DNA from: Alphaproteobacteria bacterium
Lineage (GTDB): Bacteria; Pseudomonadota; Alphaproteobacteria; TMED109
NCBI GenBank assembly: GCA_022824395.1
Contig: JAJDZX010000002.1
Location: forward strand, 1-36,710
Direction: 5' to 3'
DNA: 36,710 nt
Position 1 is the first letter of the stretch, and every line of letters starts with the position of its first letter. A program made the position numbers and the translations under genes. Positions 7,146 through 36,575 of the stretch are shown in pieces. The notes beneath the pieces are model-generated. The model was not told where the DNA came from, did no database searches, and worked only from the letters and a program-made list of their open reading frames with translations.

Positions 7146-7327
7146 GCTCCAATGAGGCCGGGGCTTGCATGCCCCGGATGTTACTCGACGACCTGGAGGC
7201 CGACGGCACCGAGAACGGGCTTCAATGAGGCCGGGAGCATGAATGCCCCGGAAATCACCCGGCGCTGTGCCCACTCTACCATCATGCAGATGCTCGAATG
7301 AGGGTGGCGCACAATGGCATTCGCGTG
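7146..7327. CRISPR. Remnant CRISPR array: three repeats, two spacers
   Basis: Repeat starts fall at 7146, 7219 and 7292, exactly 73 nt apart twice. Repeats begin GCTCCAATGAGG, GCTTCAATGAGG and GCTCGAATGAGG. Repeats 1 and 2 continue into a palindrome (CCGGGGC-TTGCAT-GCCCCGG in repeat 1, positions 7158-7177) and are 36-37 nt long; repeat 3 keeps only the first 12 nt well and is decayed after that. The spacers are about 36-37 nt (7182-7218 and about 7256-7291). The array lies 166 bp beyond the stop of csb2, so it belongs to the type I-G locus. Repeat 3 looks like the degenerate terminal copy, which would put the leader at the 7146 side, but orientation is uncertain. Confidence 0.75.
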
Positions 7328-9671: not shown

Positions 9672-9674
9672 GGT

Positions 9675-11605: not shown

Positions 11606-11844
11606 GGCTCCGCCTCCTCCGTTTGTCGGTATCGCGGTAGTTTGGCCATTTGGCCACGTACTGCGTTTACCTGGGCATCGGCCAAGATATGGGTTATCCG
11701 GTCACCGTGTGCGCCGGCGCTGTCTTGCGATTTGCGCAGGCAGGCGTATCCGGATCCGGAGCGAATTGATGCGGACTGGCCGCGTGCCTGCGGCTTTGCG
11801 CCAACTGACGAACGCATTCCCTGCGCATCGGCCGCGCACCGGGG

Positions 11845-12135
11845 ATGGCCCGCCAAACCGGCTCACTTCTACAGGAATCCCGTTTGGCACCGAATCATCA
11901 ACCTGTACTGGTGGAATCCGGCCCTGAACGCATCGTTCGACACCCTGTCCACGACCTTGAAAAAGCCGGCTTCGACCGCCATAAGGCCGAAGCCGTTGCA
12001 GCCGCCCTCGGGAGAGCATCCCTACCCGGCCGAGACCAACCTGCAACCGAAGCTGACCGGTAAAAAGCCGCTCCCGCAATCGTCGCCATCAATTCAGGCG
12101 TCACGTTCGGGCTCCTCAAACTGCTTCTTCCCTGA
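11845..12135 (+). pseudogene. DUF1640/CCDC90-like coiled-coil protein with internal stop
   Basis: The frame from ATG 11845 reads HDLEKAGFDRHKAEAVAAAL, the characteristic N-terminal helix of DUF1640-like proteins, then reaches TAA at 12061-12063. The same frame continues past the stop with AAPAIVAINSGVTFGLLKLL to a TGA at 12133-12135, which is the usual C-terminal membrane helix of these proteins. One nonsense change therefore separates the coil and the membrane anchor. Compared with the intact gene at 17155-17469, the middle coil is short, so a deletion may also have occurred. It lies in the insertion that separates csb3 from cas3. Confidence 0.6.
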
Positions 12136-12315
12136 CGTCAGAAAGCAGCGGTGTTTGCCCACAGTGAGCCCGACGACGATTACCAGTCAAACGAAGGGAT
12201 TTATATACGTAATTTTCCGAATGAACGGATTACCCTCGGCAGAGCTTTAGATCTGAACTCTCAACTTCCCTCACGCGTAGACGGCTCAAGAAACTACATA
12301 TTCCTTCACCATCAC

Positions 12316-13566: not shown

Positions 13567-13911
13567 AACTTCCTCCCGGAACTTGACTGCGACGATATAG
13601 ATTCTCTTCCCGAACATCCCTCGCGCGTAGATATGCCGAAAGACTGCGCAAACTCCTTCAATTCCAGATCGTCTACGTCGTTAACGCAGGCAAATTACGG
13701 ACCAGTGGGCGAGCCACCGTTCAGGGTGGAGGTTATCAGATGGCCTGCGCCTCAAAATGAACTTGGACAATTACATGTAGACCCCCAAACGAAGCCCATC
13801 GATTGGGCCAATTGGGCCGTCTGACGGCCACATTACGGGCTCATCCGCGGTCGACAATCGACAATACCGACACTGTTCCGGTCCCGGCACGGCGCTGCGG
13901 CTCCCGCGCCG
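13567..13911. other. Spacer between cas3 and the inserted lipoprotein gene
   Basis: 345 bp with no supported gene, part lower in G+C. It contains TTGGGCCAATTGGGCC at 13804-13819, which resembles TTTGGCCATTTGGCCA at 11641-11656 on the far side of the insertion. Confidence 0.4.
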
Positions 13912-16767: not shown

Positions 16768-17154
16768 CGCGCGCTTGTCATGGCCTCCGGGCGGCGACGG
16801 CCCGCGCGGACAGGTTCCGAGGATGCGGGGATCATCCGGGGGGAACACGGAGGCGGGCTGACGCCTGTCGGAGAGAACGGGGCCCGGAAGCCGTTCGCCG
16901 GGCCGCGGCGCGGGCGGCGGTTCCCGTTCGTCGCCGACCCGAAACGCCGTCGCAGGGGCAGCCGGGTCCCGTACCGGCGTCGCGTGGACGGCGCTTCCAT
17001 CCGTCGCCCTGGTCCCGGTCCCGCCCTCCGTGCCGGGGCACGCAGCGGCGGGACGCCGGCCGGAATCTCCGCGGGCGGCCGCGAAGCGCGTGCCGGAGGA
17101 CGAGTCAGGCGTGATCGCCGCACCCCTGCGCGTCTCTCGCCGGCGGGCCCGCCG
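16768..17154. other. Upstream region of cas3, no gene seen
   Basis: About 390 bp of very high G+C. Open frames exist on both strands but are Arg/Pro-rich and unlike proteins. It should hold the cas3 promoter, which I could not pinpoint. No CRISPR repeats are seen here. Confidence 0.4.
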
Positions 17155-22519: not shown

Positions 22520-23500
22520 CTACGGCGGGGTCATCGCCTCACTGAGCACATTGAAGATGCCCCACAGCAGCACCTCGCTGCCGTCTTCTTCCAGGAACTC
22601 GGCATCGCTGAAGCCGCTGACGAGTCGCGGGTGCCCGCTCGGATCGTCGACGTTCGAGAAGCTCCCGCCCCAGAAGCCCTCGGCCTCCGTAATCGTGCGC
22701 GTCGGGTGCGTCACGCGCGCCTCCGTGCTCTCGAACGAGCCGTCGGCGTTATATGCGGTGGGCGCAAACCGGATCTCGTACCCGGCCACCGGGGCCAGGC
22801 GGTCAGGCAGGTCGATCCCGAGAACGTCCTCGTAGACGCCCGCCAAATGCCTTCGTTCCGGCAGGATGTCGCCCACGCACCCCAGGCACCCGGTGATCGT
22901 CCCGCTGCCGAAATCGGCCACCGCCGTCATGGTGGCGGTGTACTCGCCGAGGGCGAATGCACCGGCCAGATCACCCCAGTCGGCGCCGTACACGTACTGG
23001 ACGACTCCGCCGGCACTGCCGGTGTAGCGGGCCTGGCCCGTCACCGGCATCGTGGGCGGATGGGCCGGGTCGATCTCCGGTCCGTCGATGAAGATCGCGC
23101 GTTGAATGTTCGCCGGATCGGGGTCTTCCTGCAGAACGTGCACCCACCAGCCCGCGGCCAGGTAGTCGGTTGGATCGTCGTTGTCCCAGCTCACGAGGGC
23201 GTAGACGAGCGAAGTACTGTCGTGGGCGGCGTTGCGGAGCACCCAGGAGCGGCCTGAATGGTTGGGGATCGGGGGACGGTACTCCTCCGTGGCAATCGCA
23301 TCGCGCAACGTGTTCAGTTTCAGGATGGCGTCGCCCGAACCCACGTCCACCGTCAGCACGTTGCCGTCAAACGATGTGTTCCGCGAGAAGTCGATGTGCT
23401 CGCCCTCTGTCGTGGCTGCCCCGCTGTCCATCGATGAGCTGCCGCAGCCCGCGAGCGCACCCAGAAGGACAACACCGAGCAGTGTCCGAATCGGGTTCAT
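22520..23500 (-). CDS. Lipoprotein with TbpB-like barrel
   Basis: 326 residues from ATG 23500, with GGAGGG about 9 nt upstream. Signal peptide MNPIRTLLGVVLLGALAGC with lipobox Cys19, then Ser-rich linker. Features shared with the heads of the big lipoproteins: AAGWWVHVLQEDPDP, a Y-T-G-S-A-G-G barrel entry (ARYTGSAGGVVQYVYGADWG), EYTATMTAVADFGSGTITGC, and a second sheet ending in FWGGSFSNVDDPSGHPRLVS and LLWGIFNVLSE. Predicted outer-membrane lipoprotein; ligand unknown. No helical stalk, no protease motif. It stands alone, transcribed away from the HicA remnant. Confidence 0.78.
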   Translation of the reverse strand: MNPIRTLLGVVLLGALAGCGSSSMDSGAATTEGEHIDFSRNTSFDGNVLTVDVGSGDAILKLNTLRDAIATEEYRPPIPNHSGRSWVLRNAAHDSTSLVYALVSWDNDDPTDYLAAGWWVHVLQEDPDPANIQRAIFIDGPEIDPAHPPTMPVTGQARYTGSAGGVVQYVYGADWGDLAGAFALGEYTATMTAVADFGSGTITGCLGCVGDILPERRHLAGVYEDVLGIDLPDRLAPVAGYEIRFAPTAYNADGSFESTEARVTHPTRTITEAEGFWGGSFSNVDDPSGHPRLVSGFSDAEFLEEDGSEVLLWGIFNVLSEAMTPP

Positions 23501-23979: not shown

Positions 23980-24127
23980 GCGGCGATGCACCATCCATGG
24001 TTTGCGTCCGTTCGGGCGCAGTCGCAGTCCGAACCCCGGCGCGAGGCTGGCACACAGGACGGCCTCGCGGCCGTCGGCAGGCATGAAGGCGCGCGCGCGC
24101 CGTTGTGATTGTCGTTCTGTCGGCCAT
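23980..24127 (-). pseudogene. Integrase N-terminal (DUF4102) fragment, module copy 1
   Basis: From ATG 24127 the frame reads ADRTTITTARAR; then one CG dinucleotide fewer than copy 3 in a (CG)n tract shifts it, and the next frame continues AFMPADGREAVLCASLAPGF and GLRLRPNGRKPWMV. This is the arm-type DNA-binding N-terminus of DUF4102 integrases. No catalytic domain follows. Its ATG lies 273 nt from the divergent lipoprotein ATG at 24400. Confidence 0.7.
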
Positions 24128-24273
24128 GTCCCGCCCCTTTCCGTTCGTTCCGGGCACGACCGGCGCGGCCCGGGCGTTCCGCCTATCGGGGAACGCTCAG
24201 GACACGCCGGGTAACGGATCAATTCTCGAGGACCGGAAGAAGCGGCACGGTCGCGCGCCGTCACCGCGCGGGC

Positions 24274-24288
24274 TGCAGCCCCCTGCAG
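24274..24288 (+). promoter_or_regulatory. Conserved TGCAR direct repeat, module copy 1
   Basis: TGCAG-N5-TGCAG, start-to-start 10 bp, at 112-126 nt before the lipoprotein ATG. The same position holds TGCAA repeats in the other two module copies. It may be an operator or a promoter element for either divergent gene. Confidence 0.4.
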
Positions 24289-24399
24289 CGAACGGGCTCC
24301 CGGAGCGTCATGGAGGCACCGGTGGTCAGGTCGGTGGCCACTCCCCTCGCCGGCGGCGGGTCACACCGCCGCACAGGCGAACACGGGGAGAAAGCCCTC

Positions 24400-26643
24400 A
24401 TGACACTTTGGAGAAACCTGGTGGTTGCGCTTGTGGCCGCCTTCGCGCTTGCGGCGTGCAGTAGCAGCAGCGATACCCCCGAAATGACGCAGGAGCCGGA
24501 TCCGGGGCCGTCGGCATACGAGATGGCGGTTGCGGCCATCGACACGGCCGCGACGGCGGCCGAGGCTGAGGCGGCGGTCGCGACTGCGGTGGCAGCCGGC
24601 ATCACCGGCGCGGAGCTGCAGCGCCTGAACATGGCGGTCCAGGCGCGCATCGACGAGCTCGACGCCGCGGCGGCGGCGGAGCAGCGCCAGGCGCTGGTTA
24701 CCGCCGCCGAGTGCGACGATGCGACAGCCGCTTGCCTAATGGCACATGAGGCATTGGTCACCGCACTCATGGAAGATTTGGCCGCACTGCAGGCGGACGA
24801 CGACGCGACCAACGCCGAGGAGCAGGCCGCGCAGATGGCCATTGACGACGCGGAAGAAGCGCGTGACATGATCAGGATGGCGCTGAACGACGCCACGCGC
24901 GACACCGACATCGGCATGAAGGTCACGGACGCCGAGATGAAGGCGGCCGGTCTGGAAGACGAATTCTCCGCCGAGTTGATCGAGGCCGCCAAGGAGGCCA
25001 TCGAGGCCGCCAAGGAGGCGATCGCGGGCGGGGACGATCCGGATGCCTTCAGCGAAGAGATTTCGACGGCGGAAAGGCATGTCGCTCGGGCCGAAGAGTC
25101 CTTGATGATCTACGAAGCAATCGATGCGGCCGAGATGGCGGCCGACGGACTGGCCGACGATTCGAGCGTCGAGGCGGTTGCTGCTGCGCAGAAGCTGATT
25201 GACGACGCACAGGCGCTGATTGACGGCAACGAGCACCTCACGGACGAGGAAGAAGCCGCGGACAACAGCTACCTCGCTGGCCTCCAGAGGACCGTCACGG
25301 TGGCGAAGAACAACAACGACGCCGCGGCCGAGGCGAAGCGTCTGGCCGACGAGAAGGCCGCAGCCGATAAGGACAAGGCGGATGCAGCCGCCATGGCCGC
25401 CACGGCCGCGAAGCTGTATGCGGGGATTGACGTTCCCAGCGATACCGCGGGTGCCAACGAGAGGGATGCCGAATACTCCAGCACTAATGACAGCCAGATC
25501 ACCGTGACGATCGGCGAAGGCTCGGGCAACGAAGTGGCCCTGTCGGAAGACAAGAAGACGATGGTTCCCGCGAACCATGGTTGGGCCGGCAAGCGCTTCG
25601 CCGATCCGGTCGGTGGCGACGAATACGAGGCGATGGTCTATTCGAACGTCGAAGCGCCGACGCCAGGCAAGAAGTTCGGCAGCGCAGTAGCAGGATCAGG
25701 CGCGGCAGACAGTCCGTACCAATATCTGCTGGCTGCCACAGCTACCGGCACCACCGTCTTGGTTGGAGAGTTGGCGATCACAGGCGACGTTGCGACGGCG
25801 ACGGTCCGCATCGACAGCCCGTCCTTTGACCATACGGCCGGGACGAAAGAGTTTGAGAAGGGGGACAATCTTGAACGCGTGGTCATAGCCGGCAGCTACC
25901 ACGGCGTGTCCGGCACCTACTACTGCACGCCAGCGGCCGCCAGCACATGTGCGGCCGAGGCTGCCGCAAACGGGTTCACTCTTGGTGGCACCGCGAACGA
26001 CGGCAATGCGTTCACGACGGGTGCCGGCACTTGGGCGTTCAAGCCCGGCAACCCGGAAGCCAGGGTGATGAGCGCGATGGACACCGCCTACTCGTCCTAC
26101 GGGTGGTGGATCCGCACCGCCACGGACGGCAAGGTGACCGTCAGCGCGTTCCACGACCACAAGGATGGGGCTACTGCACCGCCCGCTGCCAACCTTCCCG
26201 AGGCCGGAACTGCCACGTATGTGGGCGGAGCGGCCGGCAAATACGCCCTCAGCAGCGCCACCGGCGGAACCAACGACTCTGGTCACTTCACTGCCAGGGC
26301 GACGCTGGAAGCTGAATTTGGTGTGAACGACGCCAACACCATTTCCGGCACCATCGACCAGTTCGTCGGCGCGGACGGTGAGTCGCGCGACTGGTCTGTC
26401 AAACTGAATGAGACGGACATCACCGATGCCGGCGTCATCGACGGCCTTGGCGGCCCCGACGACACACAGGTGGGCACCGTCTGGACCATCGGCGACAAGG
26501 CAGCGGCCAAGTCGGGCCTGTGGTCCGGCGCACTGCGCGAGCAGGGTGACGACAACGTGCCGCAGGCCGCGACCGGCGCGTTCTACAGCGAGTACGGCCC
26601 TGCCGGAAAGATGGTCGGCGCGTTCGGTGCCAACAAGCAGTAG
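24400..26643 (+). CDS. Stalked TbpB-like lipoprotein, module copy 1
   Basis: 747 residues from ATG 24400 (GGGGAG 9 nt upstream; the frame is open upstream to 24109, but the conserved signal peptide MTLWRNLVVALVAAFALAAC fixes the start). Lipobox Cys20, short Ser/Pro linker, then an Ala/Glu-rich helical stalk to about residue 335 (includes AAKEAIEAAKEAIAGGDD). The head (about 337-747) has SGTYYCTPAAASTC with a probable disulfide, GWWIRTATDGKVTV, an AKYALSS-type barrel entry, FTARATLEAEF, SGTIDQFVG, and ends FYSEYGPAGKMVGAFGANKQ, the TbpB barrel closure. Predicted surface lipoprotein with a stalk that lifts a ligand-binding head; the ligand is unknown. Copies 2 and 3 share the signal peptide exactly for 15 residues. 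Intrinsic terminator at 26703. Confidence 0.83.
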   Translation: MTLWRNLVVALVAAFALAACSSSSDTPEMTQEPDPGPSAYEMAVAAIDTAATAAEAEAAVATAVAAGITGAELQRLNMAVQARIDELDAAAAAEQRQALVTAAECDDATAACLMAHEALVTALMEDLAALQADDDATNAEEQAAQMAIDDAEEARDMIRMALNDATRDTDIGMKVTDAEMKAAGLEDEFSAELIEAAKEAIEAAKEAIAGGDDPDAFSEEISTAERHVARAEESLMIYEAIDAAEMAADGLADDSSVEAVAAAQKLIDDAQALIDGNEHLTDEEEAADNSYLAGLQRTVTVAKNNNDAAAEAKRLADEKAAADKDKADAAAMAATAAKLYAGIDVPSDTAGANERDAEYSSTNDSQITVTIGEGSGNEVALSEDKKTMVPANHGWAGKRFADPVGGDEYEAMVYSNVEAPTPGKKFGSAVAGSGAADSPYQYLLAATATGTTVLVGELAITGDVATATVRIDSPSFDHTAGTKEFEKGDNLERVVIAGSYHGVSGTYYCTPAAASTCAAEAAANGFTLGGTANDGNAFTTGAGTWAFKPGNPEARVMSAMDTAYSSYGWWIRTATDGKVTVSAFHDHKDGATAPPAANLPEAGTATYVGGAAGKYALSSATGGTNDSGHFTARATLEAEFGVNDANTISGTIDQFVGADGESRDWSVKLNETDITDAGVIDGLGGPDDTQVGTVWTIGDKAAAKSGLWSGALREQGDDNVPQAATGAFYSEYGPAGKMVGAFGANKQ

Positions 26644-26702
26644 CCGATACGGGACGGGGGCAGGCTCGTATGACAGCCTGATCCCGGTTCCCTGACACTG
26701 AC

Positions 26703-26735
26703 GGGGCGGCGGTCGCGTGACTGCCGCCCCTTTTT
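26703..26735 (+). terminator. Intrinsic terminator of lipoprotein copy 1
   Basis: Stem GGGGCGGCGGTC / GACTGCCGCCCC (one G-T pair) around a GCGT loop, followed by TTTTT. The same hairpin with the same GCGT loop follows copies 2 and 3. Confidence 0.85.
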
Positions 26736-26739
26736 CTTG

Positions 26740-26870
26740 TGTGCCGAGCATGACTGACAGCTTGGAGGCGCAAGTCCTGTATTGCCCAGTCTGATGGCGG
26801 CCATGGATTAGCGAAGCGCAAGGGCGTCGTTGGGAGGCGGGGTCTGAAGGAAGCGTGGAGCAAAGCCGCG
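26740..26870 (+). mobile_element. Group II intron domain I-like fragment, copy 1
   Basis: GCTTGGAGGCGCAAGTCCTG, then GCGCAAGGGCGTCGTTGGGA and GGGTCTGAAGGAAGC...AGCAAAGC. These blocks resemble domain I of bacterial group II introns as I recall them. It is nearly the same as 35803-35932. The remainder of the intron RNA does not follow. Confidence 0.5.
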
Positions 26871-26959
26871 ACTTGATGGACAAGAACCGAATACGAGGCC
26901 TACCCGGGCGGACGAGCGGGCAAATGATCGCGAAGTCCATGGCCATCAAGGTCCGGGGT

Positions 26960-27154
26960 GGTAAATCCGGCAGGTGCGCGGTGAAGGCGGCTGGTCTTAC
27001 CTCGGGAGGTCTGCGCGGTGTCCGGAAGCTTCCGGACCGAGCGTTTCCGCAAGGGCCGTCATCGCGGCGCAGAAGTCAGCAGAGGGCATAGTAGTCGGCG
27101 TGCCTGCCGACGAAGGCCCGAACGATGGACAAGGGTCGGTAGGGCGGCATGCTC
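26960..27154 (+). mobile_element. Group II intron RNA fragment upstream of reverse transcriptase
   Basis: GGCTGGTCTTACCTCGGGAG and AAGTCAGCAGAGGGCATAGT, with CGAAGGCCCGAACGATGGAC, match the RNA domain (III/IV) region that precedes the maturase gene in many bacterial group II introns. The inverted copy is 36390-36575 on the minus strand. Confidence 0.6.
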
Positions 27155-27654
27155 ATGTTGACCAGGCGGCAGAAGATCCAGTTGGAACTGGCCTTGGAGC
27201 CGGCGGCGAAGGGTGAAGCCCGGAGCGCCGGAGACCAAGGGACCGAAGCCTGTGTGGCGCGCGCCGTGCCCGAACGCCCGGCGACCGGGCCGGGGCCGTC
27301 GATGGAGGCGGTCGTCCAGCCCGGCAATCTGAAGAAGGCGCTGGCGCGTGTCCGGCGCGACAAGGGGGGGCCCGGCCTCGACGGCATGACGGTCGAGGAG
27401 CTGGGTGCTCACCTGAAGGACCACTGGCCCGAGATCCGGTCCCGGCTTCTGGGCGGCACCTACGAGCCGCAGCCGGTGCGGCGGGCGGAGATACTGAAGG
27501 CATCCGGCGGGGTTCGCCCGCTCGGCGTGCCGACGGCGCTCGACCGCTTCATCCAACAGGCGGTGATGCAGGTGTTGCAGAAGGACTGGGACCCCGGCCT
27601 CTCGGAGGCGAGCTACGGGTTCCGGCCTGGACGCTCGGCGCATCAGGTGGTGAG
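27155..27654 (+). pseudogene. Group II intron reverse transcriptase/maturase, 5-prime fragment
   Basis: Starts ATG 27155; the ATG at 27149 is absent from the other copy. It reads TRRQKIQLELALEP, then NLKKALARVRRDKGGPGLDG (RT0/1), EEIRSRLL-like WPEIRSRLLGGTYEPQPVRR and ASGGVRPLGVPTALDRFIQQ (RT1/2), and ends around EASYGFRPGRSAHQVV. RT domains from the catalytic YADD motif onward, the thumb, maturase and endonuclease are gone. The junction with the distal end of module copy 2 lies near 27654. Confidence 0.85.
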
Positions 27655-27760
27655 CTTCAGGAAGGCGACCAAGACACCTGCGACCAGCAGCTGGGCGAGG
27701 ATGATCTGGACGAGGGAGTCATTGGCCTGCTCGTCCGCCCGGGTAGGCCTCGTATCCGGT
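27643..27760 (-). pseudogene. DUF1640-like C-terminal membrane tail
   Basis: The last residues of a minus-strand frame read NDSLVQIILAQLLVAGVLVA then FLKLTT before the stop at 27643, matching the membrane-anchor end of DUF1640-like proteins. The upstream part (PDGQEPDTRPTRADEQ) does not look like the family. Probably the tail of a gene that lies at the outer end of module copy 2. Confidence 0.35.
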
Positions 27761-27859
27761 TCTTGTCCATCAGGTCGCGGCCCCGCTGGTCCTTCGCCGC
27801 CATCAGGCTGGATAGAGGACTTGCGTGTTCCGGGCTGTCGATCATGCCCGGCACGCAAG

Positions 27860-27892
27860 AAAAAAGGGCGGCGGTCGCGTGACCGCCGCCCC
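27860..27892 (-). terminator. Intrinsic terminator of lipoprotein copy 2
   Basis: On the minus strand, a GGCGGCGGTCGCGTGACCGCC-type hairpin (11-bp stem, minus-strand loop ACGC) is followed by six T. It is the counterpart of 26703-26735. Confidence 0.85.
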
Positions 27893-27951
27893 ATCAGTGT
27901 CAGGAAACTGGGATCAGGCCGTCATGCGAGCCTGACCCCGTCCCGTTTCGG

Positions 27952-30675
27952 CTACTGCTTGTTCACACCGAACGCGCCGATCATCTTACCGGCCGTGCCG
28001 TACTCGGTGTAGAACGTGCCGGTCCCGACCTTCGGAACGCCGTCGTCGCCGTTGTCGTAGAGCATGCCGCTCCACTCGCCGGAGGCGTCAGCGGCGTCTT
28101 CGCCGATGGTCCAGGCCGTGTCGTTATCGGTTTGATCAGTCCCTGTGCGGGTAATGCCACCCGTAGCGGCGATGGCAGCTTCCTTCAGTTCAACTGACCA
28201 GTCCCGGCTCATGCCATCGGCACCCATGAATGTGTCGATGGTGCCGGTGATCGAGTTGTCGCTGAAATCGGCGTTAAGCGTTGCCCTCGCGGTGAAGTGG
28301 CCGGCGTCGTTCGTGCCGCCCGTGGAACTGGAGAGCGCGTACTTGCCGGCCGCGCCGCCCGTGTAGGTCGCCGTGCCCTGCAAGGTGTCGAGAGCTGCGG
28401 CGGCCGGGACGTCACCCTTGACATCCGCGAACGCGCTCGCGGTGTAGGCGTTGCCGTCCTCGGACCTGTGGATCCACCAGCCGTAGGAGGCGTAGATGGC
28501 GTCCGGCATGCTCTCGACCTTGGCCGTCGCGGTGCCGGGCTTGAACGTCCAAGTGCCGCCGCCTGCCGTGAACGCATTGTCGGCATCGGCTGTCCCACCA
28601 AGAGTGAACCCGTCTGCGGCTACCTGAGCTGCGCATGTGCTGCTGGCTGCAGGCGTGCAATAGTAGGTGCCGGACACACCGTGATAGCTGCCGGAGAGCA
28701 TCACCCGGACCGCATTGGTCGGCAATTTGAACTCTTTCGTTCCGGCACTCTGGTCGAAGCTCGAACTGGCGATTCTCGCCGTGGCTTTCGCCACGTCACC
28801 CGTGATGGGAAGCTCACCGGGATTGGCGGCATCCGCGGCGTTCAACGTGTACTTCTCATTGAACGGGTCGCCCTCGGTCGGCTCGCCGACATTGGAGTAG
28901 ACCATCGCCTCGTACATGCCGTCATCGTCGGGCTCGGCCGTGTACCGCTTGCCTTCCCAGCCATGGAGTTTGGCGTCCGGCGCCTTCTTGTCTTCCGACA
29001 GGGCGACGGGATCAGCGGTGCCGACGCCCACCATGATGCGCGTGTCGATGGCTACGCCGCTTTCGGGGACGTCAACGTCGTTGTACGCGGCGGCCCGTTC
29101 ACCGCCGGCGGCCAGAGCGTTATCGGCAGCCGTAGTTGTGGGGTTGCCATTCTGCGCAGCGATCCCCTTCCACAGCTTCGCAGCCGTTGCCATCATGGCC
29201 GCATTGTCGGCCTTCCGCTTGTTGTCGATCGCCGTCATGCGGTTGGTCTTGGCGCTGGCAAGCTGGGTTTCCAGCGTTTCCAACGTGCCCTGGGCCATGG
29301 CGACGTCGGCATCGCCTTCGGGAAGGTCGTCCGCACCGTCGATCGCCGCCTTGAGCGCGGCAACCGCGTTGTCGGCAGCCGTCACCTGAGCATCGGTCGA
29401 GTCGTTGTTGACGGCGTTAACCGCTGTCCGGGCCATCGTCACGGCATCCGTGATCGCCGTGCGCTGGGCCATCATGCGACCGTCGCGGTCCATGCCGGTC
29501 TGCGCCGTTCTCACGGTCTCCGTTGCCGTGTTCAGATCGGTCATGGCCGCGGCCTTCTCAGCATCGCTCAGATGGGTCGCCCCATCCAGCGCCGCCTGAA
29601 GCGCCGTGATGGCGGTGTTCGCCGCGGCGATCTTTTCCGCCGTGTCCAGATCGTCGAGGTCGATCATGCCGAGAGCCGCGACGGCTTTCATCAGCGCCGT
29701 TCTCTGACTGTCGACGTTGGCGGTGAGAGTTTCCTCCGCCCGGTCGACCTTCCGCTGAGCCACTGTCACGTCGACGGTGGCGTCAAGCTTCTCGGCGTCG
29801 GTCAGATTGGTCGCCGCCGCCAGAGCCAAATTAACCCCGGTGATGGCTGCCACGGCCGCATCGATCTGCTCTTGCGTCATCAGATTGTCGAGGTCGAGAG
29901 CAGCAAGGGTAGCAACGGCTTCGTCGAGCCCCGTCTTCTGGGCGGCGGTGTCGAAATTGCCCTGCGCGGCCATCACGGTCCGATCGGCTGTCGCCACCTC
30001 GGTCATGGCTGCGGTCTTCTCGGCAGCGCTCAACTCCGTCGCCGCGGCCAGCGCGTCGCGAACCGCCGCGATGGCGGCCTCGGCCGCATCGATCTTTGCC
30101 TGCGTCGACAGGTCGGTCAGGTCGATGGCTTGAAGGTCACCAACCGCGTCCGAAAGCGCCATCGTTTGGGAGGCGTGGTCGAGAGTGCTCTGCGCGTTCG
30201 ACACGAGAGTCTCCGCCGCATCCACCCGCGCCTGATACATCGACGTGTCGTCGACGTCGACCGCGTCAGCGATCGCCGCCTTGAGGCCCTCGATGGCCGC
30301 CTCGGCCGCGTCAACCAACGCCTGGGTCGACAGGTCGGACGTGTCGATCATGCCAGCAGCCGTCATCAGCGCCGTTCTCTGCATGTCGGCACGGTCCATC
30401 GTCGCCAGCGCCGCCACGCGCATGTCGACCGCATCCTGCAGCATCGCGCCCTGCGCAGCGGTAACGTCGTCCTTCACCGCGTCGTAAGCCGCCTGGGCTG
30501 CCGCCGCCGTGGTGGCCGCCGCGATGGCCGCCTTCGCCGTCTCGTATGCCGAAGGCTCCGGGTCCGGGTCTGGCATCGCCGTAGGTGGATCCACCGGCGC
30601 ATCGCTGCTGCCGCCGCAGGCCGTAAGCACGAAGGCGGCCACGAGCGCAACCACCAGGTTTCTCCAAAGTGTCAT
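27952..30675 (-). CDS. Stalked TbpB-like lipoprotein, module copy 2 (chimeric)
   Basis: 907 residues from ATG 30675 with the shared signal peptide (lipobox VLTAC, Cys20) and GGGGAG upstream. The stalk to about residue 498 contains repeated helical units of roughly 80 residues, recognised by LSTQAKIDAAEAAIAAV, LMTQEQIDAAVAAITGV and LDTAEKIAAANTAITAL. The stalk matches copy 3 closely and copy 1 hardly at all. The head (about 500-907) instead matches copy 1: VALSEDKK, GWEGKRYTAEPDDDGMYEAM, SYHGVSGTYYCTPAASSTC, GGTNDAGHFTARATL and the end GKMIGAFGVNKQ. Predicted surface lipoprotein; ligand unknown. The reverse orientation relative to copies 1 and 3 makes it a substrate for inversion. Confidence 0.83.
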   Translation of the reverse strand: MTLWRNLVVALVAAFVLTACGGSSDAPVDPPTAMPDPDPEPSAYETAKAAIAAATTAAAAQAAYDAVKDDVTAAQGAMLQDAVDMRVAALATMDRADMQRTALMTAAGMIDTSDLSTQALVDAAEAAIEGLKAAIADAVDVDDTSMYQARVDAAETLVSNAQSTLDHASQTMALSDAVGDLQAIDLTDLSTQAKIDAAEAAIAAVRDALAAATELSAAEKTAAMTEVATADRTVMAAQGNFDTAAQKTGLDEAVATLAALDLDNLMTQEQIDAAVAAITGVNLALAAATNLTDAEKLDATVDVTVAQRKVDRAEETLTANVDSQRTALMKAVAALGMIDLDDLDTAEKIAAANTAITALQAALDGATHLSDAEKAAAMTDLNTATETVRTAQTGMDRDGRMMAQRTAITDAVTMARTAVNAVNNDSTDAQVTAADNAVAALKAAIDGADDLPEGDADVAMAQGTLETLETQLASAKTNRMTAIDNKRKADNAAMMATAAKLWKGIAAQNGNPTTTAADNALAAGGERAAAYNDVDVPESGVAIDTRIMVGVGTADPVALSEDKKAPDAKLHGWEGKRYTAEPDDDGMYEAMVYSNVGEPTEGDPFNEKYTLNAADAANPGELPITGDVAKATARIASSSFDQSAGTKEFKLPTNAVRVMLSGSYHGVSGTYYCTPAASSTCAAQVAADGFTLGGTADADNAFTAGGGTWTFKPGTATAKVESMPDAIYASYGWWIHRSEDGNAYTASAFADVKGDVPAAAALDTLQGTATYTGGAAGKYALSSSTGGTNDAGHFTARATLNADFSDNSITGTIDTFMGADGMSRDWSVELKEAAIAATGGITRTGTDQTDNDTAWTIGEDAADASGEWSGMLYDNGDDGVPKVGTGTFYTEYGTAGKMIGAFGVNKQ

Positions 30676-30786
30676 GAGGGCTTTCTCCCCGTGTTCGCCT
30701 GTGCGGCGGTGTGACCCGACGCCGGCGAGGGGAGTGGCAACCCGCATTACCGCCCGTGCAACCGTGACGTTCCGGGAGCCCATTGT

Positions 30787-30801
30787 TTGCAGCGGTTTGC
30801 A
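30787..30801 (-). promoter_or_regulatory. Conserved TGCAR direct repeat, module copy 2
   Basis: On the minus strand TGCAA-N5-TGCAA, start-to-start 10 bp, at the same 112-126 nt from the lipoprotein ATG as in the other two copies. Confidence 0.4.
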
Positions 30802-30947
30802 GCCCGGCGCGCCGATGGTGCGCGACCCTTCCTGTCCTTCCGAACTCCGATCCTCGTGCCGTTACCCGGCGTGGCCTGGGCGTTCCCCGATACGCGGAAT
30901 GCCCGGGCCCGCCGGCCGTGACCGGGACCAACGGAAGGGGTCGGGAC

Positions 30948-31090
30948 ATGGCCGACTGAACGACAATCACAACGGCGCGCGCACGCGCCTTCATGCTTGC
31001 GGCGGCCGCGAGGCCGTCCTGTGGGACAGCCTCGCGCCGGGATTCGGACTGCGGGCCAGCGGGCTTGCCGCTGCAACACCGCGCCGAGGG
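30948..31090 (+). pseudogene. Integrase N-terminal (DUF4102) fragment, module copy 2
   Basis: From ATG 30948 the frame is MAD-stop (TGA at codon 4) and then TTITTARARAFML; a later indel shifts it so that the ALRPADGREAVL-type region is scrambled (nucleotides still align: GAGGCCGTCCTGTGGGACAG). The ATG lies 273 nt from the divergent lipoprotein ATG. Confidence 0.65.
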
Positions 31091-31477
31091 ACACAACTGG
31101 GCGGTTTCCGCCGGCTCAATGGTTGTCGGACGCTGAACACCAGCGCTCGGCCCGGCGGGAGCGGGTGAACTGATCAGCCCTGATTGATTGGTCCAGACGC
31201 AATGTCAGTGCCGAGCCCTGGCGGAAACCGTGACCTAGATGGCGGAGTTGATCATTGCCGTGCGGAGCTGGCTGCGACCGAAGCGGTCGTATCCGCAAAC
31301 GATCGTTGGAGCCGCGCAACCAGTGGTGGAGAGCGGCGCACACTGCGGCGTAATCCAGCTGCCGCTATGCCGGAGGCTAGGCCATCCCCATCCCAAGATG
31401 ACGACTCGTTAAGGAAACGACGCCGAACCGTAAAGGAAACGCCATCGTACGGCCGCCGGAATGACCTCCGACCGGGA
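31091..31477. other. Unassigned stretch between module 2 and toxin gene
   Basis: About 390 bp without a recognisable gene. Lower G+C in part. A near-duplicated AAGGAAACG motif occurs at 31410-31441. Open frames on both strands are short or lack family resemblance. Confidence 0.35.
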
Positions 31478-31735
31478 CTACCGGTAAGCCTCGTCGCGTC
31501 GCCGGACACGCAGCAGATGGATCTCCCGCAAGTCGCCGCGGAAGCGGAAGAACACCCGCCGGTCTCCCACTCGCAATCGCCACTCGGGCGGTCTGGCGTC
31601 CGTGAGCCTGGCGACGTCGCCGCGCCCGGCATCGGCCAACTGGATCACGGCGTCGCGAATCCGCGACGCTGATGCGCGGTCGAGCTTCCTCATGTCCCTC
31701 AGCGCCGGACGGGTCCAGACCAGCGTCCATGTCAT
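31478..31735 (-). CDS. ParE/RelE-family toxin
   Basis: 85 residues from ATG 31735: MTWTLVWTRPALRDMRKLDR, RIRDAVIQLADAGRGDVARL, then EWRLRVGDRRVFFRFRGDL and IHLLRVRRRDEAY. This is the typical RelE/ParE fold: an N-terminal strand, helical pair, then the W-R-L-R-V-G-D-x-R-V strand. RelE-type members cut mRNA on the ribosome and ParE-type members poison gyrase; I cannot tell which. The ATG shares ATGA with the stop of the upstream antitoxin gene, so the two are coupled. Both are intact. Confidence 0.85.
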   Translation of the reverse strand: MTWTLVWTRPALRDMRKLDRASASRIRDAVIQLADAGRGDVARLTDARPPEWRLRVGDRRVFFRFRGDLREIHLLRVRRRDEAYR

Positions 31736-32013
31736 ATCCCGAGTTCGGCGCGCAGTGCGCTGTCGGAGACCGTGTCGCCCGCTTCCAGGGCGAGGCGGCC
31801 CTCGTCGAGCGCTTCCCGGTCTGCATCGCTCAGCGGCTCCGGGTCCCCGGGTGCGTCCATGAGCGCTCGGACGAACGGGTGTGCGTGTAGGGACAGGAAC
31901 TCGAGATAGCGTTCGGCGGCCTGGAGTTCGCCCGCGGGAAGGGCGTCCACCAGAAGGTGCAGCCTCTCTTTGAGTCCGGTTTCCATGGCAGCGAGCCGGT
32001 TAGCGGATGTCAT
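31732..32013 (-). CDS. Antitoxin of the ParE/RelE-type pair
   Basis: 93 residues from ATG 32013, with GAGG about 8 nt upstream. Helical N-terminus (TSANRLAAMETGLKERLHLL), then LQAAERYLEFLSLHAHPFVR and an acidic C-terminus (DPEPLSDADREALDEGRLAL), as expected for an antitoxin that wraps its toxin. An in-frame extension upstream to 32328 is open but not family-like; I take 32013 as the start. Its DNA-binding type is not clear. The antitoxin-first order with ATGA overlap is the usual one. The pair lies between lipoprotein module copies 2 and 3. Confidence 0.78.
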   Translation of the reverse strand: MTSANRLAAMETGLKERLHLLVDALPAGELQAAERYLEFLSLHAHPFVRALMDAPGDPEPLSDADREALDEGRLALEAGDTVSDSALRAELGI

Positions 32014-32409
32014 CGCGGAACCTCGTGAGATTATGGGGTTTCGGTTTCTTCGTCTACACGCGGGAGGCGGCGGTCGGGATCGGGCCGCGATCGTCGCGTC
32101 GACGTAGACTGTCGTCCCGAACCCCGTTACTTCCCGCGCCGGGCCGCCAGCCGAACGATCTGCCACCGTGCGTATGAGCACCGGATAAAGGCTCCCCAGC
32201 GTGCCGGCGCGATTTCTCACCGGCAACGGGTCGCGCCCTGCAGCGACCCCGAGGTTGCCGCGATCAACGACGAGATCGATATCCTCCGAAGCTCTTGCAA
32301 ATTTCCTCTGCTTGACCGTGCGCGGCATGCGGGCGGCATCCGCCTCAGGGGATCAGCCGCACAACTGCATCTGGTCGCCGGCACGCCCGGAAACAAGCAC
32401 GGCAAGCTA

Positions 32410-32603
32410 CACCCGCCTATCCCTGCCCTCGTACTTCCGTAGACCTGATTCTTCAACAGTCCGACGATCCATGTCTTGCGTCCGTTCGGGCGCACCCGCA
32501 GTCCGAACCCCGGCGCGAAGCTGTCCCACAGGACCGCCTCGCGCCCGTCCGCAGGCATGAAGGCGCGCGCGCGCGCCGTTGTGATCTTCGTTTTGTCGGC
32601 CAT
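32410..32603 (-). pseudogene. Integrase N-terminal (DUF4102) fragment, module copy 3
   Basis: Best preserved of the three. From ATG 32603: ADKTKITTARARAFMPADGR, EAVLWDSFAPGFGLRVRPNG and RKTWIVGLLKNQVYGSTRAG in one frame, the arm-type DNA-binding N-terminus of DUF4102 integrases. Similarity ends near 32430; the frame stays open to 32217 without the core or catalytic domains. The ATG lies 273 nt from the lipoprotein ATG at 32876. Confidence 0.75.
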
Positions 32604-32749
32604 GTCCCGACCCCTTCCGTTCGTCTCGGTCGCGACCGCCGCGGCCAGGGCATTCCGCGTGCCGGGGAACGCCCAGGACATGCCGGGTAGCGGATCGAGT
32701 CTCGGGGACCGGAAGCAGCGGCACGGCTGCGCGCCGTCGGCGCACGGGC

Positions 32750-32764
32750 TGCAAGCCCATGCAA
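32750..32764 (+). promoter_or_regulatory. Conserved TGCAR direct repeat, module copy 3
   Basis: TGCAA-N5-TGCAA, start-to-start 10 bp, 112-126 nt before the lipoprotein ATG, same place as in copies 1 and 2. Confidence 0.4.
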
Positions 32765-32875
32765 ACTACGGGCTCCCGGAACGTTCAGGAAGCGCGTAGG
32801 GCCGGCTTGGTCGCCACTCCCTTCGTCGGCGTCGGGTCACACCGCCGCACAGGCGAACACGGGGAGAAAGCCCTC

Positions 32876-35704
32876 ATGACACTTTGGAGAAACCTGGTGG
32901 TTGCGCTCGTGGCCGCCTTCGTGCTTACGGCCTGCGGCGGCAGCAGCAGCACCGATACGGCGATGCCGACGCCTGATCCGGAACCCGAGCCCACGGAGCA
33001 AGAGACGTGCGAGGGTGACGGCGGTCGGTGGAATGCCGACATGACGTGCACCTCGGCCGGGGATCTCGTGATCGAGATGGCCCTCGCCAAGATTGCGGCG
33101 GCCACCACGGCGGCGGACGCCCAGGCGGCGTACGACGAGGTGAAGGCCGATGTCTCCGCGTCGGATGGCGACAGGCTGCAGGCAGCGGTCAACGCGCGGA
33201 TCGCGGCGCTGGCGACGATGGGCCGTGCCGACACGCAGAGAACGGCGCTGATGACGGCTGCCGGCAATATCGACACGTCCGACCTGTCGACCCAGGCGTC
33301 GGTTGACGCGGCCGAGGCCGCCATCGCCGCGCTCAAGGCGGCGATCGCCGCCGCGGTCGACGTTGACGACACGTCGATGTATCAGGCGCAGGTGACTGCG
33401 GCGGAGACTCTCGTGGCGGCAGCGCAGAGCACGCTCGACCACGCGGCCCAGACGGCGGTGCTGACGAGCGCCCTTACGGATCTTCAGGCAATCAACCTGA
33501 CCGACCTGTCGACGCAGGAAAACATCGACGCCGCCCAGGCCGCCATCGACGCACTTCAGGGGGCACTGGACGCAGCGACCGAGTTGAGCGCTGCCGAGAA
33601 GACCGCGGCCATGACCGAGCTGGCAACAGCCAATCGGACCGTGATGACCGCGCAGGGCAATTTCGACACCGACGCCCAGAAGACGGCGCTCGCCAGTGCC
33701 GTTGCCACCCTTGCTGGTCTCGACCTCGACAACCTGATGACGCAAGAGCAGATCGACGCGGCCGTGGCAGCCATCACCGGGGTTAATTCGGCTCTGGCGG
33801 CGGCGACCAATCTGACCGACGCCGAGAAGCTCGACGCCACCGTCGACGTGACAGTGGCTCAGCGGAAGGTGGACCGGGCGGAGACAACTCTCGCCGAGAA
33901 TGTCGGTAATCAGCGCACGACGCTGATGACGGCCGGCACCGCCCTTGCCGCCATCGACCTCGACGATCTGGACACGGCAGAAAAGATCGCCGCGGCCCAG
34001 ACCGCCGTTGACAACCTCAAGGCGGCGCTGGATGGCGCGACCCACCTGAGCGATTCCGAGAAGGCCACGTACCAGACCCAACTGAGCACGGCCACGGAAA
34101 CCGTCAGGATGGCGGACACCGGTCTCAACCGCGCGCAGCGCATGATCGCGCAGCGCTCGGCGATCACGAGTGCCGTCACGATGGCCCGGACGGCGGTCGC
34201 GGGTGTGAACGACGACTCGACCGATTCCGAGGTGAGCGCCGCGGACAGTGCGATTGCCGCGCTTAAGGCGGCGATTGACGGCGCGGACGACCTTCCCGAA
34301 GGCGATGCCGACGTTGCCAGCGCCCAGGGAACGCTCACCACGCTTGAGGGCCAGCTTGCTTCCGCCAAGACCAGCCGCACGGCCGCGTTGGAAGACAAGG
34401 CCAAGGCGGACAGGACGGCCAACGCGAAACTGGGCAAGGCGCTGCGCGCGGCGCTGGGAGGGCCCGACACGGCTCCCCCCACGTACGCGCTGGCCAACAT
34501 TGGCCAACCTACGTTGGACGCGGATGGCCTCGAGGTTGATGCCGCTACCGGCGCCGGCGCACTCGCGACTACCGCTGGAGATCCTCCCTCCGTGACACTT
34601 GAGGCTGGCGCTTCCGCCAGGTCGCTGGACGGTTGGGCAGGGACGGACTACGCCCTTACCACGGGTACCGGTGACACGATGGTCACCAACGAGGCCAGGG
34701 TGTACACGAACCAGGGGCCGAGGACGCAGGTTTCGTTCGCCGATGCGGGCATTACCGTTTTCACGGGGGATACCGCGGGTAATGACCGCAAGGGCTATGT
34801 GACCTTGGACGAGACTGACGCCACCACGCTCGGGCGCATCAGGGGCGCTGCCTTCGAGCACTCTGGAACCCAGACCTACGAACCGGCCTCGGAGGCGGAT
34901 GCAGTTTACCTTTCCGGCACCTTCGCTGGCGCGCCCGGGCGGTACCGCTGCACGGGGACTTGCACCGTTCAAAATGACGGCGAGGATGGCCCGGGCGCTT
35001 TGGGCGGGGTATGGCACTTCAGGCCCGACGCCGGTGTCAATGCGATGACTCACCAGCCCGATGCCCACTACCTGTATTACGGCTGGTGGGTGAGGAAGGA
35101 CAGTGACGACATGCCGACGGCGGCCAGCGCGTTCAGCGGTAGAGTTGGAAACGAGACTGACGTTAGCACTGATGGTCTCAATCCGGGCTGGACTGGTGCT
35201 TACACCGCCGGCACCACCCTCACCGGCTCGGCGACCTATGAAGGCAACGCCGCGGGCAAATACGCCATCGACAATGTGCTCGACGGCACGGGCCATGGCG
35301 GCCACTTCACGGCGGATGCCATGCTGGAAGCCACGTTCAGCGGCGACGCTGACGATGTGGGTATCACTGGCACGATCGACAACTTCCGGCTCAACGACAG
35401 ATCCGAGGATGCGGGCTGGAGCGTGTCGCTGCACCAGGCCACTTTTGGGGAGGGCGGGGAGATCACAGCTCCTGCTGATGACACCGGTACCGCCGATGTT
35501 AACGAGGGGCTGGGCACGACGTGGTCCATCAACGGCAACAAGGCGCTGGCGACCGGCACCTGGAGCGGTGATATGTATGACGAGGCGGTAACCGGCGACG
35601 CGGACGATGGCAGCAACCTCCCGACCACGGTGACCGGCACGTTCTATTCCGAGTTCAGCACCATCGGTCGCATGGTCGGTGCCTTCGGAGCGGAAAAGGA
35701 GTAG
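32876..35704 (+). CDS. Stalked TbpB-like lipoprotein, module copy 3
   Basis: 942 residues from ATG 32876, shared signal peptide with lipobox VLTAC (Cys20), GGGGAG 9 nt upstream. A short insert with two Cys (EQETCEGDGGRWNADMTCTS) follows the linker and is absent from copies 1 and 2. The stalk to about residue 515 carries the same repeated helical units as copy 2 (LSTQENIDAAQAAIDAL, LMTQEQIDAAVAAITGV, LDTAEKIAAAQTAVDNL). The head is divergent from copies 1 and 2: GRYRCTGTC in place of the longer Cys pair, YYGWWVRKDSDDMPTAASAF, GHGGHFTADAMLEATF, ITGTIDNFR, and the closure FYSEFSTIGRMVGAFGAEKE. Predicted surface lipoprotein whose head may bind a different ligand. Terminator at 35764. Confidence 0.83.
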   Translation: MTLWRNLVVALVAAFVLTACGGSSSTDTAMPTPDPEPEPTEQETCEGDGGRWNADMTCTSAGDLVIEMALAKIAAATTAADAQAAYDEVKADVSASDGDRLQAAVNARIAALATMGRADTQRTALMTAAGNIDTSDLSTQASVDAAEAAIAALKAAIAAAVDVDDTSMYQAQVTAAETLVAAAQSTLDHAAQTAVLTSALTDLQAINLTDLSTQENIDAAQAAIDALQGALDAATELSAAEKTAAMTELATANRTVMTAQGNFDTDAQKTALASAVATLAGLDLDNLMTQEQIDAAVAAITGVNSALAAATNLTDAEKLDATVDVTVAQRKVDRAETTLAENVGNQRTTLMTAGTALAAIDLDDLDTAEKIAAAQTAVDNLKAALDGATHLSDSEKATYQTQLSTATETVRMADTGLNRAQRMIAQRSAITSAVTMARTAVAGVNDDSTDSEVSAADSAIAALKAAIDGADDLPEGDADVASAQGTLTTLEGQLASAKTSRTAALEDKAKADRTANAKLGKALRAALGGPDTAPPTYALANIGQPTLDADGLEVDAATGAGALATTAGDPPSVTLEAGASARSLDGWAGTDYALTTGTGDTMVTNEARVYTNQGPRTQVSFADAGITVFTGDTAGNDRKGYVTLDETDATTLGRIRGAAFEHSGTQTYEPASEADAVYLSGTFAGAPGRYRCTGTCTVQNDGEDGPGALGGVWHFRPDAGVNAMTHQPDAHYLYYGWWVRKDSDDMPTAASAFSGRVGNETDVSTDGLNPGWTGAYTAGTTLTGSATYEGNAAGKYAIDNVLDGTGHGGHFTADAMLEATFSGDADDVGITGTIDNFRLNDRSEDAGWSVSLHQATFGEGGEITAPADDTGTADVNEGLGTTWSINGNKALATGTWSGDMYDEAVTGDADDGSNLPTTVTGTFYSEFSTIGRMVGAFGAEKE

Positions 35705-35763
35705 CCGAAACGGGACGGAGTCGGGCGCGTATGGCAGCCTGATCCCGGTTCCGTGACACTGAC

Positions 35764-35794
35764 GGGGGGCGGTCGCGTGACCGCCCCCCTTTTT
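35764..35794 (+). terminator. Intrinsic terminator of lipoprotein copy 3
   Basis: Perfect 11-bp stem GGGGGGCGGTC / GACCGCCCCCC with GCGT loop, followed by TTTTT. Confidence 0.88.
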
Positions 35795-35802
35795 CTTGGT
35801 GC

Positions 35803-35932
35803 CGTGCCGAGCATGAACAGCTTGGAGGTGCAAGTCCTCTGTCCAGCCTGATGGCGGCGAAGGATTAGCGGAGCGCAAGGGCGTCGTTGCGAGGCGGGGT
35901 CTGAAGGAGACGTGGCGCAAAGCCGCGACAGC
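35803..35932 (+). mobile_element. Group II intron domain I-like fragment, copy 3
   Basis: GCTTGGAGGTGCAAGTCCTC, GCGCAAGGGCGTCGTTGCGA and GGGTCTGAAGGAGACGTGGC: near-identical to 26740-26870 and with a better G-G-A-G-G/C-C-T-C pairing. It stops where the opposite-strand reverse-transcriptase fragment begins. Confidence 0.5.
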
Positions 35933-36389
35933 TCGCGTCCGAAAAGCTACCGTTCCAATTCTCCTGCAACACCTGCATCACCGCCTGCTGGATGAAGCGG
36001 TCGAGCACCGTCGGCACACCGAGCAGGCGAACCCCGCCCGATGCCTTCGGTATCTCCACCCGCCGCACCGGCTGCGGGTCGTAGGTGCTGCTCAGGAGCC
36101 GGGACCGGATCTCGGGCCAGTGGTCTTTCAGGTGAACACCCAGCTCCTCGACCGTCATGCCGTCGAGGCCGGGCCCCCCTTTGTCGCGCCGGACACGCGC
36201 CAGCGCCTTCTTCAGATTGCCGGGCTGGACGACCGCCTCCATCGACGGCCCCGGCCCCGTTGCCGGGAGTTCGGGCACGGCGCGCGCCACGCGGGCTTCG
36301 GTCCCTTGGTCTCCGGCACTCCGGGCTTCACCCTTCACCGCCGGCTCCAAGGCCAGTTCCAACTGGATCTTCTGCCGCCTGGTCCGCAT
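35931..36389 (-). pseudogene. Group II intron reverse transcriptase/maturase, 5-prime fragment (inverted copy)
   Basis: From ATG 36389 leftward: TRRQKIQLELALEP, NLKKALARVRRDKGGPGLDG, ASGGVRLLGVPTVLDRFIQQ, and then NWNGSFSDAS where the frame leaves the family. About 90 percent identical to 27155-27654 but ends roughly 15 residues earlier. No catalytic YADD or later domains. Confidence 0.83.
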
Positions 36390-36575
36390 GAGCGAGCCGC
36401 CCTACTGACCCTTGTCCGTCCTTCGGGCCTTCGTCGGCAACCCGACTACGACGCCCTCTGCTGACCTCCGCGCCGCGCGCACGGCCCTTGCGGAACCGCT
36501 CGGTCCGGAAGCTTCCGGACACCGCGCAGACCTCCCGAGGTAAGACCAGCCGCCTTCGCCGCACACCTGCTGCCG
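36390..36575 (-). mobile_element. Group II intron RNA fragment (inverted copy)
   Basis: Reverse complement carries GGCTGGTCTTACCTCGGGAG, AGGTCAGCAGAGGGCGTCGT and CGAAGGCCCGAAGGACGGAC, the counterpart of 26960-27154. Similarity begins near 36570, directly beside the tandem repeats at 36585. Confidence 0.6.

Follow-up and report, generated by a model that had tools for sequence, protein, structure and literature searches.

In this work we have examined a stretch of 36,710 nucleotides (nt) of contig JAJDZX010000002.1 (assembly GCA_022824395.1, an alphaproteobacterium), called the window below, in which three lipoprotein genes each stand divergently beside the broken 5' end of a tyrosine recombinase (integrase) gene. 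A preliminary description of this DNA reported that the lipoprotein ATGs at 24400, 30675 (minus strand) and 32876 each lie 273 nt from the ATGs of the integrase fragments at 24127, 30948 and 32603, and these coordinates and distances are correct. It saw in them a mobile module with an invariant spacing, an observation which is borne out in part and an interpretation which is likewise supported in part: the lipoprotein and the integrase 5' end do recur together as a repeat, which is present in two species and in either orientation; the spacing, however, is unconstrained and the integrase stub is not constant. What that description missed, judging from sequence comparison, is the conserved segment itself, a core of about 105 nt which extends from the motif TCACACC through the signal peptide. 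We propose that at this core the end of a mobile element was joined to a lipoprotein gene, and that lipoprotein bodies have since been exchanged there.

The lipoprotein genes and their conserved core

Our comparison covers 20 copies of the core, nine from the genome of the window (G000), eight from a sister species (G002) and three on two probably misbinned contigs; one 26-nt core stub at the end of a G002 contig was left out. The copies correspond to at least eight distinct lipoprotein genes in G000 and at least seven in G002, counts which are lower bounds, since several of the copies next to contig edges may be opposite ends of a single gene. The core opens with a 39-nt 5' untranslated region (UTR) in which two of 39 sites vary (nucleotide diversity, pi, 0.005; 20 copies), and in its signal-peptide part 23 of 66 sites are variable (pi 0.08, 19 copies). 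The spacer next to TCACACC has a pi of 0.233 (11 copies), and the lipoprotein bodies have a mean identity of 0.47 (11 copies). The spacer had been considered the conserved part, but its mean pairwise difference of 23% stands against 0.5% in the UTR. Two mutually unrelated upstream regions, type a (the end, on the side of the integrase gene int1, of a tandem-integrase element) and type b (the region downstream of a second integrase gene, int2), join the core at the identical base.

As previously noted, the spacers of copies 1 and 3 align without indels, at about 83% identity; the same does not hold for copy 2, in which a 1-nt deletion and a 1-nt insertion cancel each other; indels of just this kind had been named by the preliminary description as grounds for refutation. 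The spacing can be measured in ten of the 20 core copies, those with a recognisable int1 start: it is 273 nt in four (the three of the window and C30_92), 274 nt in two, and 275, 271, 264 and 282 nt in one each. The exact agreement of those four copies speaks for a mobile lipoprotein–integrase module whose spacing is functionally constant; however, six of the ten deviate from it and several further copies have no int1 start at all. The range of 264–282 nt and the cancelling indels of copy 2 rule out 273 nt as a functional constraint, and we consider such a module highly improbable. Nor can the int1 stub be a constant functional part, because its length varies and it is broken. The stubs of copies 1, 2 and 3 match the first 148, 108 and 139 nt of intact int1, and frame-breaking indels in copies 1 and 2 agree with the earlier opinion that they are decayed 5' fragments; elsewhere the stub ranges from about 800 nt with a gap (G002:C20) down to none.

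At the other end of the unit each copy is followed by a terminator-like hairpin, already described as common to the three, which has a T run and is nearly identical among them; the 5' region of a group II intron is present there as well. Class IIC-like introns are expected just after hairpins of this kind. The intron matches (RF02001, RF01998) at 26826–27118 (+) and 36426–36502 (−), with truncated reverse-transcriptase open reading frames (ORFs), lie directly after the lipoprotein hairpins, and no complete group II intron was seen in the window. The features are collected in Table 1.

Table 1. Positions of the lipoprotein units and associated features in the window (aa, amino acids)
Feature	Position	Strand	Basis
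Lipoprotein copy 1, 747 aa, MTLWRNLVV...AACSSSS, C-terminal barrel-like part	24400..26643	+	ORF; model of last 330 aa
Lipoprotein copy 2, 907 aa	27952..30675	-	ORF
Lipoprotein copy 3, 942 aa	32876..35704	+	ORF
Core of copy 1: 39-nt UTR from TCACACC and first 22 codons	24361..24465	+	sequence comparison
Core of copy 2	30610..30714	-	sequence comparison
Core of copy 3	32837..32941	+	sequence comparison
Type a spacer, copy 1; int1-proximal end of tandem-integrase element	24128..24360	.	match to lipoprotein-free integrase loci
Type a spacer, copy 2, with cancelling -1/+1 indels	30715..30947	.	alignment
Type a spacer, copy 3	32604..32836	.	alignment
int1 5' stub, copy 1	23981..24127	-	homology to intact int1
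int1 5' stub, copy 2	30948..31055	+	homology to intact int1
int1 5' stub, copy 3	32464..32603	-	homology to intact int1
Terminator-like hairpin 3' of copy 1	26703..26730	+	
Terminator-like hairpin 3' of copy 2	27865..27892	-	
Terminator-like hairpin 3' of copy 3	35764..35789	+	
Group II intron 5' part (RF02001 26826-26995, RF01998 27039-27118) and reverse-transcriptase N-terminal fragment, after copy 1	26826..27614	+	
Copy 2 tail: shared 3' region and intron 5' fragment, tail-to-tail with copy 1	27719..27951	-	
Copy 3 tail: shared 3' region and intron 5' fragment to 35929	35705..36570	+	
Inverted intron/reverse-transcriptase fragment ending copy 3 tail	35930-36570	-	
Interval between copies 2 and 3, including ParE toxin-family gene 31478-31735 (-)	31449..32158	-	

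The element end at TCACACC and the intact recombinase locus

Where does the distance of 273 nt come from? There are four loci of the int1 lineage without a lipoprotein, that is, with no barrel-type ORF within the stretch fetched (these stretches carry L-numbers): G002:C21 (L096), G313:C93 (L144), G000:C23 (L012), in which the second integrase is distant from int1, and G381:C43 (L146), which is partial. Their upstream regions match the window spacers and one another through TCACACC, after which the similarity ends, and 229–230 nt separate the start of TCACACC from the int1 ATG. The conserved UTR, a putative recombination site, begins where the element ends, and all 20 lipoprotein cores begin with TCACACC followed by GCCGCA. 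Since the element ends at TCACACC in the loci without a lipoprotein and all 20 cores open with the same motif, we read the 273 nt as the sum of about 234 nt from the int1-proximal element end and 39 nt from the lipoprotein 5' UTR, which would make the distance the geometry of one old DNA joint. Most copies retain at least some 190 nt of the element end but no more than part of int1, and the distance would therefore be a fossil of that joint. The window lipoproteins would carry integrase tips because they are members of a larger gene family built from it. In four copies (L010 331, L049 3538, L165 287 and L170 2634) the similarity to the element end is lost about 195 nt upstream of TCACACC, which looks like a second boundary.

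At G002:C21 (L096) the chromosomal homology to the sister genomes G003 and G006 restarts directly after TCACACCCG. The word CACACCCGACGCA is present in the same orientation at both inferred junctions of this island, the other chromosomal flank being on contig C32, and among 2000 randomly drawn pairs of 70-nt segments no shared word of this length occurred. Its counterpart in the lipoprotein core reads CACACCGCCGCA. The L096/C32 relative shows in this way a 13-nt direct repeat at the island ends, with its junctions on separate contigs. It may be that the boundary at TCACACC is the crossover site of the recombinases.

One intact recombinase locus was found per genome, on G000:C100 and on G002:C41. 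On C100, intact int1 (376 aa) and int2 (415 aa), the only integrase ORFs found on the contig, lie between inverted cores, with about 520 nt from int2 to the core on its side. The two cores form a perfect inverted repeat of 107 nt (5611–5717 and 8847–8953), and a lipoprotein gene on each side is directed outward from the recombinase pair. The repeats flanking this locus are inverted, not direct as in a P4-type integrative island. Both C100 integrases have the motifs TG.R..E, HDLRH and LGH and a tyrosine, and the domains Arm-DNA-bind_3 (PF13356) and Phage_integrase (PF00589) were found in int1 of C41 and int2 of C100. The integrase pair is present on C41 as well, where the int2 side again has type b and a lipoprotein; the locus is 92.5% identical to C100 over 2,914 columns up to the contig edge. 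The ratio of nonsynonymous to synonymous substitution rates (dN/dS) between the two loci is 0.11 for int1 and 0.10 for int2 (first 1,149 nt); by this measure the recombinase pair is under purifying selection. The type b regions of the two loci are mostly 77–90% identical, and type b has no match in ten genomes beyond these loci. The lipoproteins on the int2 side share 28% aa identity in their C-terminal half. On the int1 side, the edge of C41 overlaps contig C50 by 91 identical nt.

Discordance across the core and its explanations

The closest relative of a copy in its upstream region is not its closest relative in the lipoprotein body in any of the 13 copies with both flanks, and this holds whether copies with a single flank are admitted or only the 13 are compared. 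Because the two disagree in 13 of 13, the core looks like a recombination seam. C100_8886, for example, has a similarity to L165_3907 of 81% in the early body and of 75% in the spacer; with C50_346 it has 92% similarity in the spacer, only the leader in common in the N-terminal part and 56% aa identity in the C-terminal part. All four combinations of two upstream variants beside TCACACC with two leader variants after it were found. Spacer and body distances are uncorrelated (r -0.002, p 0.46), and those of the two body parts are correlated (r 0.70, p 0.0008). A further observation concerns C30 and C75, which differ in their upstream regions and both end in the same approximately 135 nt that start C100 (L009, L010, L011 1–135); this would mean either a pair of genes whose starts are identical or a single body attached to two upstream regions.

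Could the core be conserved simply because its 5' UTR and signal peptide have a regulatory role of their own, in RNA or translation control, within a family that grew by ordinary duplication? The core does span the UTR and signal peptide, and its signal-peptide part is also constrained as protein. However, no unusual structure was detected when the core was evaluated as a structured RNA (z -0.10), and regulation gives no account of two unrelated upstream regions that meet the core at the same base, or of the disagreement between upstream regions and bodies. We find this explanation improbable.

The account that we prefer is the following. A mobile element with two tandem P4-type tyrosine recombinases, its int1-proximal end at TCACACC about 230 nt before the int1 ATG, would have been fused at this motif to the 5' UTR of a gene for a TbpB/fHbp-like surface lipoprotein. 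The hybrid unit of element end, core, body, terminator and group II intron tail would then have multiplied to at least 7–8 distinct genes per genome in two sister species, and the core, from the recombinases' end motif through the signal peptide, would have become a seam across which upstream regions swap bodies. The intact C100 pair would act on CACACC in the cores and invert its own segment, by which two upstream regions would trade lipoproteins. We put the probability of this joint reading, the fusion, the multiplication, the exchange at the core and an intact pair able to invert its own segment, at about 0.58. Sequence comparison itself establishes the common boundary, the conservation of the core, the disagreement of its two flanks and the intact locus. 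Perhaps the two recombinases themselves catalyse the exchange and the inversion still occurs today; the upstream regions may supply promoters, and variation of the cell surface may be the benefit. A more far-reaching version would be a self-encoded surface switch in which Int1 and Int2 recombine at CACACC in the lipoprotein UTRs, invert their own 3.1-kb segment at the 107-nt repeat and swap bodies at the same sites elsewhere in the genome, resembling the Vpma system but independently evolved from integrative-element machinery in an alphaproteobacterium. This we hold to be possible but doubtful.

The main rival dispenses with the recombinases altogether. Here a lipoprotein that lay by chance beside an integrase would have spread by segmental duplication, and gene conversion or RecA-type homologous recombination among the copies would have homogenised the 5' end. 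Much of the same pattern is explained in this way: both ends of the unit, the core and the terminator with its intron tail, are repeated and usable as homology, int1 is mostly a stub, and the inverted copies 2 and 3 have core variants in common that are absent from every other listed copy. On the other hand, homologous recombination alone leaves unexplained why near-invariance starts sharply at TCACACC, which is the element end in loci without a lipoprotein, why both recombinases have a dN/dS of about 0.1 in two species, and why inverted cores surround the pair in C100. We judge it a serious possibility, though not the one we would choose.

Several further observations weigh against the recombinase-based account that we prefer. 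Five of the six head-to-head pairs present on a single contig (window copies 2 and 3, C30, C15, C20 with one core stub, and L165) have type a on both sides, as duplication with homologous recombination would also allow, so that inversion at these leaves the upstream type unchanged; only C100 is of the a/b kind. C45, which has a second type a end, may be a seventh pair. A promoter scan of C100 found none, and no inversion was observed in the assembled sequences. Some nearest-relative margins are only 0.01–0.02. The two halves of the spacer are mutually uncorrelated as well (r 0.06, p 0.31), so the non-correlation of spacer and body is weaker than it appears, and the spacers may be mosaic or low in signal. 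On the int1 side of the intact locus C41 probably continues into C50, but C16 has the same terminal sequence, which makes this join ambiguous. The C100 int1-side lipoprotein (lipoA) and the one on C50 share 56% aa identity over the C-terminal approximately 430 residues, barely more than the 51% and 53% which each shares with window copy 1, so divergence instead of body replacement is possible there; in a DNA comparison the identity of these bodies was at shuffle level, but the compared windows were out of register. The site in G003 and G006 that corresponds to the L096 island has no CACACC, G002 has lost about 100 nt there that are present in G003 and G006, G006 carries a further approximately 1 kb, and the two junctions sit on different contigs; for these reasons the attachment site of L096 is putative and there is no clean before-and-after pair. 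None of the lipoprotein copies examined combines the core with an upstream region that predates the insertion. Lastly, the Pfam family PF01298 was not matched by the three window lipoproteins and was below the cut-off for the second lipoprotein of C100 (lipoB).

The interior of the window pair of copies 2 and 3 (710 nt, centred on parDE) is 91% identical, in the same orientation, to that of the head-to-head pair on G002:C15 (L047 4226–4935). The spacers of these two pairs are 82–86% identical, and the barrel halves of their bodies 34–38% in aa.

The lipoproteins, related systems and distribution

The translations contain a lipobox signal peptide (ALAACSSS or VLTACGGS), recognised by eye and with a simple pattern, and the window lipoproteins have no Pfam match over the cut-off. 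The last 330 aa of copy 1 were modelled with AlphaFold2 (pLDDT 68.8), and a Foldseek comparison of this model with the PDB returned an fHbp complex entry first (E 1.7e-4), then TbpB and NHBA, with low TM-scores. On the basis of this model, the lipoproteins appear to resemble fHbp/TbpB in fold. Five matches to SlipAM (PF04575) over the cut-off, some partial, were found in G000, and one Slam gene lies on C75 about 4.5 kb from a core copy; because Slam genes are present in the genome, one of them this close to a core, Slam-dependent surface display of the lipoproteins is plausible. In copies 2 and 3 we saw by eye, in the translations, several related helical-looking repeats of about 70 aa in the N-terminal half (28900–30500 and 33000–34400). 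Another lipoprotein at 22520–23500 (−) has no core and matches a custom barrel-type profile (E 1e-7), and the C termini of the ORFs at 2753–6220 and 12316–13617 resemble that of the barrel-type lipoprotein by eye. The window also has a CRISPR repeat match (RF01330) at 7219–7256 (−), and the large adjoining ORFs at 7494–16848 are, by eye, a candidate type I cas locus.

There is a close likeness to the Vpma/Vsp systems of Mycoplasma agalactiae and M. bovis, for which PMC2268961 describes a cluster of genes with a single promoter and a single Xer-like recombinase (Xer1), experimentally demonstrated switching, and a putative recombination site in the UTR, given as -1 to -72. Both are multigene families of surface lipoproteins with a conserved 5' UTR and signal peptide, divergent bodies and an adjoining tyrosine recombinase gene. 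Here, however, there are several loci, two tandem P4-type recombinases between inverted cores, an alphaproteobacterial host, fHbp/TbpB-like lipoproteins, and switching that we infer from sequence. With GInts, which according to PMC5385486 have three integrases, a small ginD protein and imperfect direct repeats at the island ends, the element shares several tyrosine recombinases at one island end and the 13-nt direct repeat inferred for the L096 relative; it differs in having two integrases and, at the lipoprotein locus, inverted repeats with lipoprotein genes next to them. The Slam-dependent lipoproteins of PMC5449769 likewise have a lipobox, a variable N-terminal part and a C-terminal barrel-like domain, and Slam genes occur in our genome too, but the word "integrase" occurs 0 times in the main text of that source. 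Our literature search, judged by titles, found no description of integrase pairs with fHbp/TbpB-like lipoproteins. The layout also recalls the sap S-layer switch of Campylobacter fetus, where the segment that inverts has on either side a surface-protein gene directed outward and the 5' ends of these genes are conserved; inversion there is RecA-dependent, and the segment is not known to contain a recombinase of its own.

The core itself has a narrow distribution. An exact 23-nt core pattern was found on seven contigs of GTDB-220 genomes, which possibly do not include the window's own genome: five in one alphaproteobacterial metagenome-assembled genome (JAJDWH01) and one each in Chloroflexi- and Dehalococcoidia-labelled bins. 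The core-bearing contigs of the latter two bins (L165 and L170) are probably misbinned from an alphaproteobacterium. Among 20 relatives, full-length matches to the 119-nt core region were obtained only in G000 and G002, with a weak 26-nt match in G031, and viral_contigs contained no exact match to the 23-mer. We rejected the idea that integrase pairs are general partners of lipoproteins, as only five of the 16 paired-integrase stretches of the genus (L011, L053, L085, L095 and L092) hold a barrel or Slam gene and 11 (L086–L091, L093, L094, L096, L097 and L159) do not; outside the genus it is one of nine (L160). These are rough counts, because the stretches vary in length, some are cut off by a contig edge, and the loci include two orthologous pairs. 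A second lineage of integrase pairs (L085, L095 and L092) lies divergent from barrel lipoproteins beside Slam genes, with spacings of 324, 325 and 330 nt. By eye it shares a CCGTNATCA-like motif (L085, L095, L092, L141 and L142); in L141 and L142 the lipoprotein 5' end is conserved and the bodies have diverged, and in L085 and L095 a Slam 3' fragment is inverted beyond int2.

If the reading that we prefer is true, integrases of a mobile element would have been captured into a system for surface diversity, with the recombination site inside the leader of the very genes that are varied. Such a capture would then be seen in a Gram-negative lineage outside the well-studied pathogens, and the 107-nt site and the two candidate recombinases make up a directly testable set.

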